Shown in pieces: positions 13,094-48,000 of a stretch of DNA of 64,000 nt. This DNA is from Cheilinus undulatus (taxonomy: Eukaryota; Chordata; Actinopteri; Labriformes; Labridae), in NCBI RefSeq assembly GCF_018320785.1, contig NC_054877.1:20752329-20816328 (forward strand), given 5' to 3'. Below the pieces are notes generated by a model that saw nothing but the letters and a program-made list of their open reading frames with translations, did not search any database and was not told where the DNA came from. Made by a program: the position numbers and the translations under genes. Every line of letters starts with the position of its first letter. Position 1 is the first letter of the stretch.

Positions 13094-18152
<5,059 letters not shown>

Positions 18153-18640
18153 AAGGCCCGATCAGTCGTCCAACAATCGAAAAGGAAACAACAGCGCCGC
18201 GGGCAAACAACTTTTAAACAAACTGTTTCAGAATTAAATCTTAAAATTAGACTTTCTGCGAGACCATCGATGTTTTACAAGGCTTGTTTTCGTTTCTTGG
18301 ATCGCTCCGAATACGACCGAGGAAGGAACTTCCGCATTGAAAAGTCGATACTTGCGTGTACGGAATGCGGTGACGTCAAGACGTATGCAAGATACAGCTC
18401 AGGGCATAGACTCGCAGATGAGGTTTTATTAACAGTCAATCGATAAAGCAAAGGGCCGACTTTTTAATTTTTAAAGATTGTATATCTAACACTACGACAA
18501 AAAATAAATTAGACTACTCTGTAATTCGATCGATAATATGTTAAATTCACTCTGAGAGCAGAGGACCTGCTACTGTCAAGGACTGTTTAGATCAGCGGTT
18601 CTCAGCTGGTCAGTTCCTGATGTACTATGGTCTTATTGGA
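18153..18640 (-). promoter_or_regulatory. vps4b: vps4b 5'UTR and promoter
   Basis: CpG-containing sequence directly upstream of the vps4b ATG, without a TATA box, as expected for a housekeeping gene. It includes the full palindromic cAMP-response element TGACGTCA at 18371-18378. The TSS probably lies between 18180 and 18350, but this is inference. Confidence 0.5.
18371..18378. promoter_or_regulatory. CRE/ATF palindrome TGACGTCA
   Basis: A perfect eight-base CREB/ATF site about 220 bases upstream of the vps4b start codon, a typical distance for a promoter-proximal CRE. Function is inferred from the motif and its position. Confidence 0.45.
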
Positions 18641-18642
18641 TG

Positions 18643-20072
<1,430 letters not shown>

Positions 20073-20690
20073 TAATTAGTTTTTTTTCAATGATTCCAAT
20101 GAACCACAATTCAAAGGCAATGCCTGGTTTCACATTAGTTGATTTTCACTACATTTTTATTTATTATTACTTTTGTCATTTCAAGTTATTTCAGTAACCA
20201 CTGTGGGTTTTAATGGAAGCGTACTAACAACTTTTTCCATGTGTGTTCATCGATACATTTTATTTTACTCTGATTTTCCATTGAATTTTTTTTTTTTTTT
20301 TTTTGCAATATCTAGACTCATATCACGCCTTTTCTGGGGGGAAACAAAACTGATTTTGTCATTTAATGTGTTAATTGCTCAAAATATCAAGAAAACAACC
20401 ATCATGGAGAACAGAGGTAAATACAATGTATTCATTCATGTTAATTTAAGGTTTCTATAACCTCAAGCATGTTTCATTCTTTAATTCAGTAATTTTTTGT
20501 TCCATAAATGATATAAGCTTTGATATTCTTTGTGAAATTAATTTAAGTTGTTGAAAATGTCCAGAGTTTTGGTCTCTACTGCTCATTTTCTGAGGCTTGA
20601 CCTGACAGAATAACTGTTTTAGATCACTTTAACTGTTGGATCGCACAAAACTTTCTGCAACTAAATAATTCAAAATCTGAAATTATATTA
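20073..20690. other. AT-rich intergenic sequence
   Basis: Includes a T tract near 20288-20305. No gene or recognisable element. Confidence 0.35.
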
Positions 20691-21785
20691 TTCAGTCCAC
20701 AACAGCAACCTTGGTCACTGTGTTTTGAATATCAAACCTCAAGCCTCATTCATTATATTACATTACATTACATTACATAACATTATATTATCTTATTCTG
20801 TATTTTATAATATTAAATAATATAATAAAATATTATATTATCTTAATATTATATAATATAAATATTATATTATATTAGGCTTCTCATTGGTGTTAACAGA
20901 CACCACATCACCTCAATTTAGCTTCCCTACATTGGCTCTCAGTTAATTTAAAACTGATTTTAAGATTTTACTAATTACTTTTAATGCATGTATGGGTCTG
21001 GCTTCAAGCTAATATCTGAATTATTAACCCCCTGTGAGCCAGCCCGCAGCCTTAAATCCTTGAGTTGGGGCCTCCTTTTGCTCCACAGTGAAGACTTAAA
21101 ACCCAAGGTTATCAAGCATTTTCCATCAGGGCCCCTTGACTTTGGAATGACCTATCTGAGGATATACATCATGCAGAATCAGTAGCATCTTTAAAATCAC
21201 TTTCCAAACTCATTTTTTACAGACTTGCTTTTATGTGATGTCTTCTTATTTTGTTTTTATCTTCTATCTTCCTGAATCTAGGCATACTTCAACTCCTCTT
21301 AATATTTTACTTGCGTTTGTTCCTTGTTAATCTCAATTTATTTCATGTCCTATTGGCTATGTTTTAATTGTTATTGCCATCCTCTCCCAATTTTTGTATC
21401 TCTTTTACTGTTTTACTTCTCAATACCTTTGCTATTATATTTATTAATTTTACTGACTTTATGTTTATAGACCTATTTTATTTGGATTTTTCCCTTTATA
21501 TTTGACCAATTTACTGACTTCTCTTGTGAAATTGTATTGCCTTTTACTGATTTTATCTTTCTTTTTCATTGTATTTATCTTTGTTTCTCTTCTAATTTTC
21601 CACATCTTCTTAGTTTTGGTCCTCTCAGTCTCTACCTGTACTGATGTTGTTTGTGTCATTATTCTGCTATCATTGTCTTTTGTTGGGTTCTGTTACTTTA
21701 TTCCTCTGTTTGCTTTTTCACATGTCAATGTTCTTTGAAAACCCTTGTTTTTAAAAGTGCAATTCAATTAAAGTTATTATCATCA
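20691..21785 (+). mobile_element. Decayed L2/Rex1-type LINE 3' end
   Basis: Plus-strand translation gives SELLTPCEPARSLKS and nearby LYLKDLLHP-like remnants, which match the end of the reverse transcriptase protein of fish L2/Rex1-like LINEs. It ends in 'aattaaagttattatcatcat', a tail of the type these elements use. An AT microsatellite interrupts it at 20756-20875. It sits where the missing 3' exons of the MIT-only gene copy would be expected. Confidence 0.65.
20756..20875. repeat. ATTAC/TATAT microsatellite
   Basis: Tandem ATTAC units followed by an irregular ATATTA tract, nearly pure A and T over 110 bases. Confidence 0.8.
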
Positions 21786-22099
21786 TAAAATGAAAAACTG
21801 TGTGTGGTGCTTTGGACAGCTAATTTGAGATTGACGAACGGCTTTTCTTACATTTGCCTTCTGGTTGTGACGTATTTCTTAATAGAAAACCTATGGGTCA
21901 TACACCCAAATTAAATTTGTTGAGCCTCTAAAAGTGTTAAATTAAAAACATAATACCAGATTATAGATGCACTGTTATTATCCTCATTTTGAAATGAAGC
22001 ATTAGCTATGACACACTGGAATTAGCTCTTCAATTTAAAAATATCTTGAATGACTTTTAAAATGTCCGGTTCAGCTTATCAACTCCATCTGGAACCTTT

Positions 22100-22105
22100 T
22101 TTAAT
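22100..22105 (-). terminator. Candidate poly(A) signal ATTAAA of the MIT-only gene
   Basis: The minus-strand ATTAAA lies 36 bases beyond the stop codon at 22141. It is the most common variant poly(A) hexamer and would end the message with a very short 3'UTR. Confidence 0.35.
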
Positions 22106-22140
22106 AGGACAAAAACTAATTATAATTATTTGTGGAAAAA

Positions 22141-24978
22141 TCATATATATTTCATTCTTATTGCAACCTCTTTCTTGTCTAGGTACTCTTGTAGTTCCTC
22201 CACTCTGTCCAGGTATTGTTTGCATTTATCTCTGAGCTTCTGGTTGCCATCTTTACCCTGTGGTTCACCTGTTGAGATGAAGAGCACTCATTAACATCAT
22301 TCTGCAACATAATTATTGTCAAGACCTTTTATAAACTATTGTAGCAAGTTATGAGTGCACAAGTTTAGGCTGTCACATACACAGATAAAAACATATTAGT
22401 TACTACTAATCAATACAGACTGTTAGGATGACAGGAAAGGCCCAATTTATTTTCCATAATGTTTAAGAGTGAATCTTGGGAGCATTTTCCTCTAGCCATG
22501 GTGACGTACGTTTTATAATATGGAGGAAATATTTGACAGCATGCTGGTAGGAGAGGATGGCCTCTTCATAGTTCCCAGCCTCATCTTCCTGTGAAGCCTT
22601 CTGTGCCACTGCAATAGCTTTCTAAAAAGACAGAAAAATTAATCAATAGGTCAGATACCTTTGGAAATCATGTTTGTACAAAAACTCCCAAAATACAGGA
22701 TCCTCAAACTTAGCGAGATTACATTACTTCAGACACTTACAGACATAAATTGCAGCCAACACAAAAATACAGACTTTCAGTGCCTATAAAAAGTATTTAC
22801 CCTCTTAGATCTTTTACTTGTAGCTCATTAAGAGGCCACCAAGACACTTTTGACTACTCTGAAAGAGTTGCAAGCTTCAGCAGCTGAGCTGGGAGAGACT
22901 CTACATGCAACTGTTGCCCCTGTTCTTCACCAGTCTAAGCTTTATGGGAGAAAGGCAAAGAGACAGCCACTGATAAAGAAAACAGAGTTTGCCAAAAGGC
23001 ATGTGGGAGACTCCATGATCTTTTTTTTTTGGATTAAAAATTTTTATTGGTTTTCATTTAACATTGAATACATACAGACAGAATCCTTCCCCAGTGCCCA
23101 CCCCTGGTCATCACTATGGATACAATCAGTCTTGGTTGTAAGCCTCGATAACTTTCCATCTTAAACATGGATGTGTTAAATTATCAAAATAAAAACAGAA
23201 GATTCAGACCATACTCCAATAAAACAGGAACAGTAATGTTAGAACAATAATGATCATAATAAAATAGTCTTAAAGAAAAAATGAAAGAAAAGTAAAATGT
23301 TCCCTTGATAGTTGTCTTCTTCTGTACAGTAGTATTAAAAAAAAACAACAGGTAGATAAGAAATGTATAAATTAAAAAATGATTATTAAATAAAAGCTAA
23401 TAATAACTAAAAAAACTAAACTAGAAATAAATAAATAAATACAGACATCTCATGGAATATGACCATCATCATAAACCCCCACAAATTTCAAATATAACCT
23501 TCCAAACTGTTTACAGGACATCCTTTCAAATGCTGCCACTCGGGCCGTTTCAGCAGTCCATTCTTGGAATGAGGGCACAACCTCCATCTTCCACCCTCTG
23601 ACCAGAATCTGTCTGCCTATCAGGACACTTGTTTGAATCCAACTTTTAACATGTTTTTCATATCCATTTAAAACTGAGTCATCAACTAAAACAAATAGTC
23701 TGGGACAGAAAGGGATTTGAATCCTTGTAATATCACTAAAATTGTTATGTATTCTGTCCCAAAATTCTTGTACTTTGTCACAGGACCATAAAACATGCAA
23801 TGGCCTAAGACTCCATGATCAAGTAGAAGAAAGTTCTTTGGTCTGATGCGATCAAAATGGTGCTTTTTGCCCATCAGACAAGACGCTATGTTTGACTGAC
23901 ACCAAACACTGCACATCACAACAGACACACCCTCACCACTGTGAAGCACGATGATGCTGCCACCACCGTGCTTCACCACTGTGAAGCACGGTGGTGGCAG
24001 CATCATGCAGTGGGGATGCTTCTCAGGAGCATCATGCTGGCGACTCTTTAATATTTTCTTATTCATCACATTTAATATTGTTATCACAATATACCCCCAG
24101 AAACCACAGAAATTTGGGGTGGCCAGATGGGGCCACTGAAAATCTTGGGGTGGCACAACAAAACCAATATCCATGACTGAATAATTTAAAAGTTTCTGCA
24201 ATGCTTTTGCATGGACTATATTTAAAAAATTCTATTAGGAGGGATCTGTGAAGGACATAATAAAAAAGATTATCAGGTTATTTCTTTTTTTCATAAATGG
24301 TCCTCTGCCTTTGTTACTGTCATCTGTCCAGCATCTATCTTTTTTTTACCATTACCAAGGTGATGGTCAACATGGCTGAAGCCCCCACTGTGTTCACCCC
24401 TTTGTACACACATTAATCCTTTTATTTTGGAAATAAATTGTCAGCGCTTGTAAGGTGTTGGAACTGTTAAATGTAGTCTAAGTCCACTGTAGGCCTAGAA
24501 TATATCTGTAGCCTATACAACATTTCCCTGAATAAAAACAAAGAGAAACTCTGATCAGCGTTATAAGCTTGATCTAAAAATGATGGCATCTTATTTTAAA
24601 CCACTTAATAAAGTAGACAAGTTTTCACAGACTACCACTGAATCTGTGGAGTTGCTGTGAAACACTATTTATGTTCAGTGATGGAAGAAAATGAGCAAAT
24701 GGAAATAATGACCAGTAACTCCTGCTCTCAATCTAAGGATTGCTAAGACTTTTACAACAGCAGAAGTAATACTGAGAACGCACAAAAATACATCAAGAAG
24801 GTCTTACATTGAATCCTAATGAAGCACTTGCCAAAATGAAAGCTGTCAGACATCAAACAGCCGATAGCTCAAGGCTACACGATACGTTTGAGTTAAGTTA
24901 AAGCGGCACTCCGCAGACAAACTAGAAGCTTTCAGTTTTAAAAAAAGGCTACCCTACCTGTAAATTAGTAGGCTCCAT
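22141..24978 (-). CDS. MIT-domain-only tandem duplicate of vps4b (three exons)
   Basis: Minus-strand exons 24958-24978 (MEPTNLQ), 22510-22621 and 22141-22268 give an open 86-residue frame with GT-AG splicing. Exon 2 is 112 bases, as in vps4b, and the junction phases are identical. About 42 of 71 aligned residues match vps4b, including [19 protein letters not shown] and the helix-3 run [16 protein letters not shown], which in VPS4 docks ESCRT-III tail motifs. Eight codons later (VAIRMKYI) comes a stop, so the linker and AAA ATPase are absent. No AAA exon is found between here and vps4b. GAG followed by GTTGCA at 22168/22167 could alternatively be a phase-0 donor. It may be an isolated MIT protein that binds ESCRT-III, an alternative 5' end of vps4b, or a pseudogene that has kept its frame. 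The first intron carries Tc1 and L1 insertions. Confidence 0.7.
23021..23807 (-). mobile_element. 5'-truncated L1-type LINE nested in the Tc1 remnant
   Basis: A 787-base insertion with a 13-base target duplication AGACTCCATGATC (23008-23020 and 23808-23820) and a 10-base poly(T) on the left, which is the poly(A) of a minus-strand element. The minus-strand open frame 23450-23800 reads [16 protein letters not shown], the cysteine-containing end of L1 ORF2. Truncation is at the 5' end, as usual for L1. Confidence 0.85.
23951..24006. repeat. Perfect 26-base palindrome with 4-base spacer
   Basis: The arms 23951-23976 and 23981-24006 are exact reverse complements separated by CACT. The sequence is the transposase segment encoding VKHGGGSIM in both orientations, with a further partial direct copy just to the left (23930-23950). 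It can form a long hairpin. Confidence 0.9.
24046..24957. other. Remainder of intron 1 of the MIT-only gene
   Basis: Unassigned sequence, part of it (24090-24160, 'ggggtggccagatggggcc') GC-rich and repeat-like. No exon resembling vps4b was found in it. Confidence 0.35.
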
Positions 24979-25437
24979 TCAGAGTCCTGTGAGAATCAAC
25001 ACACAAAGCAGTCACACCGTGTTGCCCGCCTGTCTCATGTATGTCACTGTAAAACAAGTTCCTGTTTGCTTATCACTCCCTCTGCTCTGACACGAGCGTC
25101 CCAGAAAAAGAAGCCTGTTCAGTCCGAGGAATGGCAACAATGCCGAAACCCTCCTGCAAGTGAGTCACGGCGTCTAATTGTTGTCGCACAAGTTACAGAG
25201 ACAATGGAAGTTGCTGAGCCATGTTTTAATAACCATAACAGACTGACGTAGGCTAAAATGACTAAGGTAAGGACTCTCGTTGACGTAACAGTAACACGAA
25301 ACGTAGAACAAGTAAGACACTATCTGTTGCATGTGTAATATAATATGGTAGCTCTGATTACCGACTGCAACGTGACATGTAAAATCCGCGACTTTTGATG
25401 AGAACCAAATTCCACCTTGTTGTAATGTCTGGTCTCT
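24979..25437 (-). promoter_or_regulatory. 5' flank of the MIT-only gene
   Basis: Moderately CpG-bearing single-copy-looking sequence upstream of the minus-strand ATG at 24978. No TATA box. It faces lama3 head to head. Confidence 0.3.
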
Positions 25438-25451
25438 CCACTAGATGGCGC
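25438..25451 (+). promoter_or_regulatory. CTCF-like core motif
   Basis: CCACTAGATGGCGC fits the vertebrate CTCF core consensus CCASYAGRKGGCRS at every position. It lies in the intergenic space between the MIT-only copy (minus) and lama3 (plus), where a boundary element would be sensible. Binding is not shown. Confidence 0.5.
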
Positions 25452-25498
25452 CATAAGCTAATTGCAAAAGTGCAGTCTGTCTGTAAGATACCGCCTTG

Positions 25499-26042
25499 TA
25501 GTGATGGGAATTTAGTGTCCTTTAAGTGATCCGCATCATTTGGTTCGGCTCAGGAAGAAGAACTGACTCTTTCGGCTCCCAAACAGTTCTTTTTTCAGGT
25601 GCAAGTTATGCTCATTTAACCAGCCAGATTTAGCAATGTCATCACATATGGTTATTTGTGCCTGTATTTTAGTCCAGTTGTTCTTAGTTTTTTGAATTGA
25701 TGAAAATACCATGCTATTATTTTATTAAATATACTTTACTGCCCCCCCCCAAACCCCTTGTGGGTCAAATTAAATCTGCTCACTAGCTGGAATGTATGAA
25801 ACACCCAGTATAATTAATGTTGTACCATCAAGCTTATCCCTACTGTGAGATATGCCTGTGGAAGTTTGTAGAAAAGATTATTCCTGCTAATCAATCAGAT
25901 ATCACAAAAACAACTTACATAAAAATAAAACCAAAAATTGTTACAATGATATAAAACGGCTCTCAAACGGGATCCGGCTCTTCTCGGTCACATAAAAGAG
26001 TCTGCTCTTTGAACCTGCTCGTTCATGAACGACCCATCACTA
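25499..26042. mobile_element. hAT-type MITE
   Basis: 544 bases with inverted ends TAGTGATGGG...CCCATCACTA and 8-base flanks CCGCCTTG/CCACTTTG (6 of 8 identical), fitting an aged hAT target duplication. It carries the 'ttcggctc...' / 'gaacgacccatcac' sub-terminal sequence seen in fish hAT MITEs. No transposase. Confidence 0.75.
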
Positions 26043-26818
26043 CCACTTTGGCTTTTGATTTGGAGCTCGAGGGACCATGCTTAATGAGGTAAAAAAAAAA
26101 AAAGGAAAGCACTTTAAAAAAAGGATGACAATTAAGGTTTTACAGTTAGAGGCTTTACTAATTATCAAGTCATTATCGTTCAATTTTGTGTTCGCAGTTC
26201 TTAACCAGCCATTGCACTTGCATTTAGCCTACAGCTAAATTTATAAGGCTATAGCTTAAATAGTAGGGAAAATAGGCAAGAAGCTGCGCTTTTTGAATTT
26301 CAAGCCTGTAAAAGATATAATTTTAAGATTCTTTATGACTACATTTTAAATAATATGAAAGTTTTGTTTTGTAAATGTTATCATTTGCACACTAAACGTG
26401 TATATTTTTTTCTTGTGTTTGAATGTCAGAGATTTACGAAGTGTTTAAAGAAAATAAATTAGGCGTGCAGCTGGGTGACGCAGTGTAAACTGTGATAGGA
26501 GACCTTTGGCCCCCCTCGGTGGATTAGCATCGAGCTCCGACCGTCGACAGCCTGACACCTGATAGCTGCAGAGTGGCGCTCAGTCTGCTCAGGAGGAAGA
26601 AGGAGTTGGTGTTAGTTTGGAAACATGCGGCGGAAAGAGAGCTTACCGCCAACAGAGGAATACCAGCTCATATCTTTTTCACTGACTGTAACCAACGTGC
26701 TATCTCATTGAGAGAGCCTCGCGCAGCCTATTAGGCGTATTTTATGGAGAACTATAGATGACAAGACCTGCACGCTGCGGGTTGCTCTCAGCATCTACTG
26801 GGATCTTTACTGTGGATC
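26043..26818 (+). promoter_or_regulatory. lama3: lama3 5'UTR and promoter region
   Basis: AT-rich up to about 26440, then noticeably GC- and CpG-richer to the ATG at 26819 ('cggtggattagcatcgagctccgaccgtcgac'). The 5'UTR probably begins after 26500. No TATA box is seen in the CpG-rich part. The TSS is not determinable. Confidence 0.4.
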
Positions 26819-27067
26819 ATGGCAAGAGGGATGACGGGAGCTCATCTCCTCGCTTTATTTTTTGCTTTTTCAGTAACACTTTTCAGGGAAACAGATGGAC
26901 AAGAAACAGGCTATAGTTTGAGTCCTCCGTATTTCAACCTCGCTGAAGGGGCGAGTATCTCTGCCACAGCAACCTGCGGTCAGGATGAGGCTGGGGCACC
27001 GAGATATGATTTGTACTGTAAGCTGGTCGGAGGACCTACTACCGGAGTTCTTACTCAGAATATACAG
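26819..27067 (+). CDS. lama3: lama3 exon 1: signal peptide and start of LN domain
   Basis: 83 residues. A hydrophobic leader runs to about residue 22, with a likely cleavage site before the QETGYSLSP stretch. Then come the first LN strands with SATATCG and DLYCKLVGG. The donor GTATGA follows CAG. Confidence 0.92.
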
Positions 27068-30000
27068 GTATGAAAATCTTGTTTTCACTTATGCCACACA
27101 AATGAAGATGAATTACAATGGAGTTGGGAATGCATGATCACACTTTTACACTTTGTTTAAACTTTATTACTAATGCCTACGTATTTTGTAGATATGTTCC
27201 CGTATGACTCACGTTGTTTCGTTGTAAAAGCTCTGCCTGCAAAGTTGAAGCTGCCAGAAACTATTTTACTCCATTGTACTTGAGTTTTGTTCAGGAAATG
27301 GCCTTTTCAAAGTGCACTAGTCCCCTCAGGAGTTTCTCTGAAAGGCCCCGTATTACTGTAAGAACAGCAATTTGACATGCACATACAAAAACTTAAGTTT
27401 GTCCTGTGGGTGCAATACTTTTTAGTTGGGTTAGATATCTGCCAGTGCCTGTCTTTTCCTTTCATTCTAAACCTGCATGTAGTTGTTCTGCTGTAATTAT
27501 TTGGGTGTGTATGTCTCTGAATCTAAACAATCTGACAACATTCAGGGTCAGTTCTGTGACTACTGCAATGTGGCTGACCCTAACAAAGCCCACCCGGTGA
27601 CCAACGCCATCGATGGGACAGAGCGGTGGTGGCAGAGCCCTCCTCTCTCCAGAGGGCTGGTTTACAACGAGGTGAATGTAACCCTGGACCTTGGACAGGT
27701 AAGATTATCATACTTTACTGTGCTGTGAACAGCTGTTTACCTGCTGCTGCCTGCACTGTGAATAATGATTGCTGTGTGGTGACAGGAAAATGTAGCACCT
27801 GGATGTTGCAAAGGGGAGTGAAGGAAAGTGTTGGCTATTGTTTTGTTGGCACCTTCACTGCTGTGAGATTAAACATTGTGATATTTTACATCTGATTCTG
27901 CCTTGTTTTGACCTTTTTTGCTGCGGTTTCTTTAAGCTAGGTGCTTATAGGGAAGTTGTTTGACAGATGTTGTTTCATTCACAAGTGCTCCAAATGTGTT
28001 ACTAGATATTATTTTCAGTTTGAGCCTCATCACCTCAGCCAGCGGTGATCATGTGATTAATGTGCTGCAGTTGGATGCTCGCCAGGAATCAGATTCACGC
28101 CCCTTTGGCAGGCGAATATGCTTCCATCACGACCCGTGTCTTTGGCAGGACTTTGGCTTACGGCCCATAAAATTGCACCTCACGCTGAATTATCCACTGT
28201 GAGGAAAGAGAGGAATTCTGTCTTGCGATTAGGGATCAGAAGAAATCAGATTGGAGGAGTGCAGGTGGAGGCCTGGATCTCTTGTGTGAGGAGGGTTTTG
28301 ACTAGCTTTGGAGTGGACTACAAAAAGAGAGAGCTACAAAGGCGCTCCTATTCGCACGTGTTGCATATTTGCCTCCCAGTGGGCGCTGTGTCTGACAATG
28401 GGTGGCGGCTTTTCTGTCTCTGTTTTTAGACAGACTGGGCTGAGCAGAGATCCTCCACGACTAAATATAGTGTGGGCATACAGGAGGATGGACACATGCA
28501 GGGCCTTCAGGGATGTCTGACTTTAATACGTGGTAATGCTCAGTTTATTTGGGAGTGGGGAAAGCAGCATTATTGCATTACAGTGTGCTAAAAAGAGCAT
28601 GGCTAGATCTTTGGCGATGGCTACCAACTGCATATTACAGCCCTCCCTCATTGTACCACCACCTCATGAACAAATAAAAACACACACACCTGTCACACAC
28701 ATTTTTCCCTTTTTGGTGTCTCATGCAACAACCAGGACTGTAAACAATGCTCACCTGCTACTGTTTCATTTGAAGCCGCATGGTTGTTGTTGTACCAAAG
28801 TCTTACATGCGTCCTGTAAATTCAGAAAGTAGTAGTTGGGTCTTCTGCATATATTCTCTAAAGGAAAGATTTAAGCCAGAGCTGGGAGAAATAGTGGCTT
28901 CTGCAGTTAAAAATGTGTGTGTTTGCTTTCCTTCATTGCTCTCTCCAACTTTACAAATGTAAGCTCATCCATTACCCAAGCCAGGACTAAAGCTGTCAAG
29001 CTTTTCTACTGTTCAATGTGAAGCTTTGATTGCTTTGTTGGCTTTTTTCAAATCCACAGGATAAATGATGTGTTCATGGAAATATGTGGGCTATATCCCA
29101 CTGAATGGGTTTGTGGTTTCTTTCAAGACAGATGCAGGTGGCTGTTCTGGTCTGTTCCATACAGTGCTCAGTACATGTATTATAAAATGGTAGAGTTGAT
29201 GTTTATGTTTAAAAGCTGAGGTTCAAAGAGAGAGGCTTTTTTTTTTTTTAGAGATGTTTCCGGTTTGTCTGTCAGGAGGCTTGTTTCAAGCCAGGTAAAC
29301 TAAGTATAAACTCATCTAGTTAAAAGCAATCTCAACATGAGTCTGACTTACACATTAAACCAAAAGTGAGCCAAAAAATAGATTTTGAGCCAAAGAAATC
29401 TGTGTTTAAATTCACTAATGATCTCTCTCAATATGGAAATGTTGCCCTGTGCGTTTATCTGACAGTTTGGTTATCTCTGGATTGTATGGACCACCTTTAA
29501 ATGAGTTGTCACAAAATTATGTAAAAGCAATCATAGTCCCCAGATGATGAATCCCATGGCTCTGAAGATTCTCTGCTAACCTCTCGTTCCACCTTAAAAT
29601 GACACATTTAAGTCGTAACCAAATGTTTCAGCAGCTATAGGAGGGACTGTTGTAAATTATTGGGACTGACATTCATGCCACCCAGAGGATACGCTGTAAT
29701 GACTTCATTGATCCCCTGGTGCTCCATCTTGCACCATATTCTTGTCAAAAAGTTTAATTTGAAGGCACTTTATAGATATTCCCATCCATCAGCTTTCTAC
29801 TTTTTGGTAACATGATTGACAGCCTGCATGCAGAACATAAGCATGTTTTTATTGCATGTTAGCTTACAGGAGTTAGCATTTGCTGCCTAGCACTGCTGTG
29901 CTCTGACAATGATTCTAGCAGGGCTGTAGACTTAGCTTTGGTTTTGCTGAGTTTATTCTCAGTAATAATCTTGGTGCAGTGACTGAGATTGTAAATGCTG

Positions 30001-45000: not shown

Positions 45001-48000
45001 TAGAGAAGCCTTGAACTTGGGTGACTTTCTGGGGTCTTAAATCCACTGGTATTCCCGATATTGAACATCTTTTTATCCATTTGTAATCAATTTTGATCGT
45101 TGATCATTACTGCCATTAGCTTTATCTTTAGCCCCCATATCTATTTTCCACAATGCTTTGTCACAGGCTGTGGCAACCAATGGCCGGCTGTTCCGTCACC
45201 ACATAATGTTTTGCCAAACAGCACATGTGTAAACACTTTGTAAGTGGAGGAGAGTCTGAGTGACTCATAAAGGACAGAAAGAGACACTGAGAGGCTGTGA
45301 TGTGTCCCTCTGTGTCACTGCAGACAGGAACCGTTTTGAATAATGACTCAGAAGAAGCCAATTACAAAAAGTGCAAGGAATTTTTTTTTGTAAATATGTG
45401 ACTCTTTTAAAGACCTTTTGTCACAGAAGGGTTTTTTTTAATCCTTTTGGTCCCAAAGAGATGGGAAAAGAAGTTTGTGGAGGGAAAAAGCCCTAGTCAT
45501 CAGTGTTTACTGTGTGTAATACATAAAAATCTTTGAGTTTTAATTTCCGTTTAGTTTTTCCTTTTGTCTGTATAGTCCCATAAAATTTTAAAATTCAAGT
45601 GACAACACGCAGCACACATATTCTTAAAGCCCAGGTTGTCCTGGAAAAAGGATGTTTTGAGCTTAACTGTGCACCACAGGGTTGATGTTTTACAAGCTGT
45701 TTCAGGCAGAAAAGTCCAGGCGAGAAAAAATGGTTAAAAATAGAATATGTCTCAGATTAACATTTTTAAGTTCAAAAGTTCATGATTCGATCAGTCATAT
45801 CAATTTTATATTGCTGAAAAACAAAAAACCCATTTCACATCCTTACAACTGTATTCATTTGAGTTTCTAGTCAAAAACGTAATTTTCAATTTCTTGATGC
45901 TAGATTTGAACATATTGTGACCTTTTATATAGTTTACATTTGCGTTAACATTCACTTTCACTGTCTGTTACTGCATCATGATGTAACTGTAGGCAGCTTG
46001 TTAATTGAGCTAATTAACATATATTGTGCCAATTGCAAAACAGATTTTCACATTGGATTCATATTTTTTTTCTTAAAAGGACTTTTGAAATTTGGGAGCT
46101 TTTTCATGTGGCCTACTTTCTGAGCGAATGAGGAGCAATGAGATGATTAAGTGCATATTACTACCAAAGGTGCTACATTTGGTTTAATCTTATTCATGAT
46201 GTATTTTGAGCATATGAAAGTGCTCTTCATGTCTACTTGTTTGTCCATGTCTGACATCGCAGTGTGTGGTGCAGTTGTTAGAGCAGAGGGGATGAACAGA
46301 GATGCCTCCTCCTCTTGACATGTTCTTTACGTCCCAGGTTATCCCCATTCACCTCAGTAAACAAACCTAGTTAACATGCTGTGAGGGCATTTTTTAATGC
46401 GATATTAGATTGTTGTTAATAATAATGGGTTTCATGATAATAAAGATATATATGGTGTGTGGGGAAATTTATTATGGTTATCATTAATACTGATAGCCAT
46501 TTCATCTCTAACCCAGGGTTCGATCTCATCCCTATTTCTGTCTGCACTAGCTTTGTTTTTGGAGCATTCTTCTCTGCTAGGGCTGTCAAAATTAATTGCA
46601 GAAATTGTGATTAACTAGGGTCTACTACTAAAGCACATATTTTTGAAATCAGGATTAATCACATGATATATTGACCCTTAAAACATACTTTGGTCAATCC
46701 ACTGAAGCGTCTCCCTGCAGCCAGTGATTAAAGATAAGCACACCACTTCTACTTAATGACTCACTTTACTTTAATACTTGCAGACAGCTCAGTGGACAAG
46801 TCAAAACTTATCATCACCCTGTGTTATCAAATATTAACCTTTTGGTTGTCCTGTTGTCCTCTTATCTTCTTTTCAATCTATCACAAGTTTCTTTTTCCAT
46901 GGTAAAGTTAATGTTAAATCTTGGGTCTGGCTATAAAAGTAGGCCTGTATCCATACAGGAAGTTAAGGCCAGCTCAGACTACACGAATTCAGCCAGATTT
47001 AAGCCCGACTGTGACATTGCAGCTTGTCGTCAAAACTGGGGCCTGATTTTGAGAGTCGGGAACGACAAACCGTCTTGTAGTGCGACATAATTAACGACGC
47101 GTCCAAGACTCCTTACGATTCCTCACGACCATGATTCAACAAGACTAGCATGTCAGAATTTTTCGTACATCGTCGTATAGTTTGACACCCTGACCTGACG
47201 TCAATGACGTGAATCCTGATGTCTAACAACAGGAGAACATTTGCTCCTTATCTTTGCATCATCATTCACAAGATTTACCACTTTTATCACCTTTTATTTC
47301 CTAAAACTATGTGAATTTTGGTTTTTTCACATTGTCACATGCATACCTTAGGTTCTATCTGAAGGAGAGCCGGTCCATATTGTCCTCCCCTCGATACATC
47401 CATACTTATTATCCATAATTCAATCTGTCATTGCTTCTTATTTTCCTTTTTTGAGCAAAAGACCACTATAATCACAAGGAGCGCTCCTGTTGTAGAGTGA
47501 TTGACACTCTTTGGCCCGCCCCCGGACAACCTGTGAACTTGCACTCAGTCGCGGAGACGGTGGTGACGTCAGCATACACTGAGTGGTCTGGATCACTCTT
47601 GTAGTGTGGCCAGGCTGTCGGCCAAGATGTGACAAGATTTTGGTCGCATAGTCTGACATGGTGCCATCGTGAACAACCAAAAAAATCGTGTAGTCTGAGC
47701 CAGCCTTTAGTAACCCTTAATGTAAGACAGTTGATAAATTAAAAAAATGACACAACAGTTTTAAATGCAAAACAGTGGAATTAAAAAAAAGCAAAAGGGA
47801 TGTGATTAATCATGATTGACTGCAATTCTGAGATTAATCGCAATTTAAAAAATGTTTCTTTTGACAGCCCTATTCTCAACATCACTCAATTACTGCATTA
47901 AGTTAAAGCTGGAAACACCAGTGATTAATGTTGCTATATATGAGCTTCAGTGGTATTTATTTGGTTTTATTTGTTTTCGGGGGTCTAACACAACCATGTC

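Follow-up and report, generated by a model that had tools for sequence, protein, structure and literature searches.

In the 1.17-Gb genome of Cheilinus undulatus, the window analysed here (64,000 nucleotides of contig C13, NC_054877.1) carries on its minus strand kdsr, vps4b and, upstream of vps4b, three small exons that resemble the beginning of vps4b and end after its MIT domain. This arrangement raises the question of whether the MIT-only copy is a gene in its own right or what is left of a complete duplicate. The neighbours on either side we take to be kdsr and lama3, following the preliminary description of the locus. The kdsr-named gene has a short-chain dehydrogenase match below the Pfam cut-off, and the laminin gene starts at about 26.8 kb on the plus strand. 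Since vps4b and lama3 are, in the accessible portion of a yellow catfish study, also listed within one sex-linked region (PMC9945428), their linkage is not peculiar to Cheilinus undulatus.

The three exons of the copy (Table 1), of 21 nt, 112 nt and 128 nt including the stop codon, join into an open frame of 86 codons, the translation of which is unbroken over all 86 residues. Both introns are of the GT-AG type and interrupt the frame in phases 0 and 1, the phases of vps4b, and the length of exon 2 is identical in the two genes. Exon 1 terminates in AATTTACAG directly before GT, as does exon 1 of vps4b, and exon 2 is bordered by the acceptor ...TTTTTAG and the donor GTACGT. Within the 4 kb upstream of exon 2 there are 31 candidate mini first exons of phase 0 and 15-39 nt, amongst which only the one at 24978 ends in NLQ before GT. 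Detectable homology to vps4b stops at 22168, within exon 3, and the last eight residues of the product, VAIRMKYI, form a private tail before TGA. Of the marks of a decayed pseudogene (frame breaks, stops, lost splice sites) none is found in the 261 nt of coding sequence and the four splice sites. Measured from the start codon of vps4b, the stop codon of the copy lies 4.0 kb and its first exon 6.8 kb upstream. The preliminary description had reported three exons on the vps4b strand, about 4 kb upstream, with the same exon-2 length and phases and no frame break, all of which, coordinates and figures included, could be re-derived from the sequence; its identity of about 59% over 71 positions corresponds to 42/71 relative to the neighbouring vps4b when NLQ is excluded.

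Table 1. Features of the window around the MIT-only copy (positions counted from the first letter of the window).
Feature	Positions	Strand	Remarks
vps4b coding region, MIT and AAA exons	13094..18152	-	start codon at 18152, stop codon 13096-13094
Decayed Tc1-like transposon (named by inspection)	18701..20200		between vps4b and the copy
ATTAAA, possible polyadenylation signal	22100..22105	-	about 36 nt past the stop codon; pattern only
Exon 3 of the MIT-only gene	22141..22268	-	end of helix 2, helix 3, VAIRMKYI, TGA
Exon 2 of the MIT-only gene	22510..22621	-	112 nt; MIT helix 1 and most of helix 2
CpG-rich promoter-like stretch	24701..25700	-	over exon 1 and upstream; o/e up to 0.90 (400-nt windows), 1.01 (300-nt windows)
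Exon 1 of the MIT-only gene	24958..24978	-	ATG and 6 codons (MEPTNLQ), donor GTAGGG
ORF with start of divergent laminin gene	26762..27073	+	Laminin_N below Pfam cut-off here, above it in the next ORF

The product of the copy matches the MIT profile PF04212 over its full length (profile positions 1-66 of 66; 80.8 bits with a cut-off of 30, E 7.5e-23), and in PDB it is matched best by VPS4B chains (E 1e-26). The N-terminal MIT domain of VPS4 type and the shared exon structure are present, whereas no AAA ATPase cassette was found: exons 4-11 of vps4b, searched against the window at E up to 0.1, hit nothing but vps4b, and a more permissive search of 18701-26700 for a remnant gave 18.8 bits at best, inside the range of 16.8-21.8 bits obtained for 30 shuffles. 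Hidden AAA exons near the copy were rejected on this basis, in agreement with the earlier observation that the frame ends after MIT helix 3 and that no AAA exon precedes vps4b. No Rfam match was obtained in 18000-27000. We file the copy as a VPS4-derived MIT protein, neither a VPS4 ATPase nor a retrocopy of the retroCHMP3 type. The gap in which its AAA exons would be expected is occupied by the Tc1-like element, the inverted ends of which span about 160 nt and are 78% identical (27 mismatches and 5 gap openings in 161 columns); given this position, the loss of the AAA exons probably predates the insertion. Intron 1 of the copy holds a perfect 26-nt inverted repeat with a 4-nt spacer (23951-24006), possibly two abutting transposon ends.

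We also searched the genome at the protein level. The nine candidates scored contained four VPS4-type matches, namely the copy, vps4b on C13, a further vps4b on C7 and vps4a on C9, and no second MIT-only VPS4 copy. The same four account for part of the 11 Pfam MIT matches in the genome, the other seven of which we leave unnamed, and no relative was found in viral and prokaryote sequence collections. The C7 vps4b is apparently full length, with recognisable exons 1 to 11 (exon 2 at C7 50030251), and a search for a twin of the copy in 120 kb around it gave, apart from the C7 gene, no match with E below 0.05. Its MIT exons resemble those of C13 less than most of its AAA exons do. Gene order gave no proof that the two loci are partners: the only ORFs to receive a name from Pfam were an ankyrin ORF, PIG-X and CEP19, the latter two about 36-40 kb beyond C7 vps4b, and one ORF that is presumably PLEKHB2 had no Pfam match. 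The interpretation of C13 and C7 as a genome-duplication pair fits the four VPS4B and two VPS4A genes given for trout in the consulted part of PMC12603132.

The copy shares 45 of 74 ungapped residues with C13 vps4b and 40 with each of the C7 and C9 genes, and among PDB chains 47 and 48 with VPS4B and 41 with VPS4A. C13 vps4b differs from the second PDB VPS4B chain at six sites (23, 30, 34, 50, 61, 65). At none of them does the copy have the C13 residue; at three it retains the PDB VPS4B state, and at 61 it has Lys like C7. Comparison with the first PDB VPS4B chain adds position 76 as a seventh site, with Lys in the copy, in C13 and in the second chain alike. The split between the copy and vps4b therefore looks old. 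It likely predates the C13/C7 pair as well: an approximately unbiased (AU) test over six chosen trees, seven sequences and three models rejected the copy and C13 as sisters (p 0.009-0.012) and rejected the copy and C7 equally, although for the former pairing the KH (0.07) and SH (0.09) tests did not reach 0.05. The C13 states at 34, 50 and 65 also occur in C7 and hence are not unique to C13. The Ser 34 common to both is encoded by TCT and AGC and may be a parallel change, which weakens it as proof that the copy split off before the C7/C13 pair. In a four-gene codon tree the topologies were nearly equal (lnL -788.80 to -789.37). The origin of the copy as an old tandem duplicate, as first proposed, is supported with respect to its age; recent derivation from today's vps4b is disfavoured by the lack of any shared departure and by the AU test (p about 0.01; KH and SH above 0.05).

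The dN/dS check that had been suggested was run on the paralogues and gave an omega of about 0.1 or less where time was held equal. In this equal-time codon model, in which the tandem paralogues are given the same time and some other branch times lie at the upper bound, the copy as sister to vps4b has an omega of 0.10 (lnL -789.26), with neutrality (omega 1, lnL -802.89) 13.6 log units worse; with the copy older than the C7/C13 split, omega is 0.03 (lnL -791.00, as compared to -818.43 for omega 1, a gap of 27.4). The free-time fit, in which third positions are saturated and several branch times are at the bound, separates omega 0.13-0.15 from 1 by only 0.7-0.8 log units and leaves room for a neutral phase of the copy of about 0.27 substitutions per site. 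Omega is 0.01-0.02 in the remaining VPS4 branches (free fits).

Neutral evolution was also simulated, with 400 runs at each rate. At 0.20 changes per site, 46.8 residues were kept together with 19.2 third-position differences (95% range 13-26), and at 0.75 changes per site 16.7 residues (11-23) with 43.5 third-position differences. The copy, as compared to C13 vps4b, combines 45/74 residues with 41 third-position differences, a combination that the simulations did not produce, which disfavours a neutral copy. The chance of encountering no stop under the amount of neutral change needed is 0.13-0.15, and that of frame, stops and splice sites all remaining intact lies between 0.007 and 2e-5 if indel ratios of 0.02-0.15 are assumed. 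Using the Tc1-like element as a yardstick, a neutral copy would have stayed whole since the insertion with p = 0.003 if the ends began identical, and with 0.012 or 0.05 if their initial divergence was 5 or 10%; the uncertain indel count by itself widens this probability to 5e-5 to 0.026. Three further tests show nothing of the kind: the copy changes at 13/45 invariant and 10/29 variable sites (p 0.62), without favouring the tolerant ones; where all three paralogues agree, the copy is changed in 10/54, 7/62 and 2/11 columns at codon positions 1, 2 and 3, without significant trend; and the mildness of the replacements is not significant (p 0.08-0.11). The argument of the preliminary description that an intact frame speaks against simple decay thus gains from the equal-time model, the simulations and the yardstick, but nothing from the site, codon-position and mildness tests. 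Our reading is that constraint on the copy was long and real, yet looser than in the other VPS4 branches, and that it may or may not act today.

A CpG-rich stretch covers exon 1 of the copy and the sequence upstream of it. Across the window the CpG o/e in 400-nt windows has a median of 0.25 and a 95th percentile of 0.74, and a trough divides the exon 1 peak from that of lama3 at 25801-27300. The main peaks from 10 to 30 kb coincide with kdsr, vps4b, exon 1 of the copy and lama3, with a minor peak of 0.62 inside vps4b, and from 38 kb on there are twelve more peaks of at least 0.55, one of them over a repeat. That peak, at 46701-47900, reaches an o/e of 1.01, and translations of the repeat share, for the most part, about 80% identity with a stretch about 50 kb from C7 vps4b. 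For 24.1-25.5 kb no repeat match was found within the locus sequences compared. CpG depletion being a proxy, the exon 1 peak is suggestive only as a sign of a promoter; a bacterial promoter scan of this region is not meaningful for fish.

Taken together, these observations lead us to think, without great assurance, that an MIT-only protein is produced and has a role. The best reading of the locus, which we hold tentatively, is a real gene, the product of which is a free MIT domain competing for ESCRT-III tails. Long constraint is silent, however, on which protein was constrained, and the main rival is a complete tandem VPS4B that was long constrained, lost its ATPase half by deletion fairly recently and persists as a pseudogene, expressed or silent, with MIT exons not yet hit. 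The end of homology inside exon 3, as after a deletion, the lack of bias towards tolerant sites and the neutral interval permitted by the free-time model would all suit such a relic, which we nevertheless regard as rather unlikely: an AAA remnant above the level of shuffles was not found, and the expected AAA position is held by a Tc1-like element with diverged ends, since the insertion of which neutral intactness has the low probabilities given above (0.003-0.05).

Location on the same strand and upstream would suit alternative first exons of vps4b, exons 1 and 2 of the copy being spliced to exon 3 of vps4b to give a full-length VPS4B with another MIT start, as exon 2 ends in phase 1 in both; exon 3 of the copy would then be a cryptic end. 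That vps4b owns a CpG-rich promoter region and that exon 3 of the copy keeps an in-frame helix 3 behind its own acceptor, for which this model has no need, make it a poor prospect. Hardly credible to us is a copy that was a neutral pseudogene from birth, since the equal-time model is at least 13.6 log units worse under neutrality and the simulations fail to give the joint identity and third-position pattern, even though the free-time dN/dS and the missing codon-position trend in columns invariant in the paralogues are compatible with it.

According to the preferred reading, that of a gene for a free MIT domain, an early vps4b duplicate would have lost the linker and the AAA ATPase to become a stand-alone MIT protein of 86 residues and about 10 kDa, which would be transcribed and fold as a three-helix MIT domain. 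VPS4 MIT domains bind the tails of CHMP1, CHMP2 and IST1, VPS4B more weakly than VPS4A, as stated in the consulted text of PMC9477494. By analogy, the monomeric free MIT could bind the MIM tails of these ESCRT-III subunits and, having no ATPase, compete with VPS4, so that filament disassembly would be slowed or tuned. In VPS4A, the relevant part of PMC11218997 reports that L64D abolishes MIM1 binding and V13D MIM2 binding; the copy retains L64 and has Ala at position 13 as in VPS4B (numbering from the alignment). Helix 3 (residues 53-78) has a net charge of -0.2 in the copy as compared to +2.8 to +3.8 in six other VPS4s, which, together with changes at 13 otherwise fixed residues, means that ESCRT-III binding may be altered or lost; judging by this charge, the tail preference may differ from that of VPS4. 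Catalytically inactive VPS4 acts as a dominant negative blocking HIV-1 budding (PMC10748027, as excerpted), and the free MIT would presumably be a milder competitor, although against competition stands that a single MIT domain is without the avidity of the VPS4 hexamer. The decoy and antiviral roles, and the analogy with retroCHMP3, are inferred. The fullest version, in which an early ray-finned-fish vps4b duplicate, possibly older than the teleost genome duplication, was kept as a host competitor for ESCRT-III tails that tunes or blocks disassembly by VPS4, perhaps against viruses, with the recharged helix 3 conferring a different tail preference, is in our view unlikely as a whole.

The copy has the MIT domain, exon 2 length and phases in common with VPS4B and VPS4A, which possess a linker and AAA ATPase; in the copy neither was found and the private eight-residue tail follows instead. 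MITD1 and other MIT proteins that lack an ATPase resemble it in offering an MIT domain that could bind ESCRT-III tails, but in PDB MITD1 is a weak match (E 3e-7, versus 1e-26 for VPS4B), and MITD1 has a C-terminal domain beyond the MIT, while the product of the copy ends there. RetroCHMP3, which according to a title referenced in PMC7618577 blocks virus budding without blocking cytokinesis, is likewise a truncated extra copy from the ESCRT machinery; both might work by competition. It is an intronless retrocopy of a filament subunit, whereas the copy is derived from the hook of the ATPase and retains two introns at vps4b positions, and any antiviral effect of the copy is hypothetical. Isolated MIT domains serve as laboratory reagents. 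If our reading is true, a natural free MIT preserved over a long time would provide the cell with its own brake on membrane scission and would parallel, on the side of the host, the truncated ESCRT-III inhibitors; it may grip the cutting filaments without the ability to take them apart. Among the literature matches listed there was no MIT-only VPS4 gene; in the portions of the sources consulted, a trout 'protein 4B-like' proved to be DENND4B (PMC3647546), and a pipefish VPS4B-like entry had a database match with an E-value of 0, hardly possible for 86 residues (PMC3853555). The MIM2 mimic of HCMV pUL71, described in the same part of PMC11218997, also acts at the VPS4 MIT-MIM interface, with the difference that there the virus supplies the MIM side, whereas here the host would supply a spare MIT.
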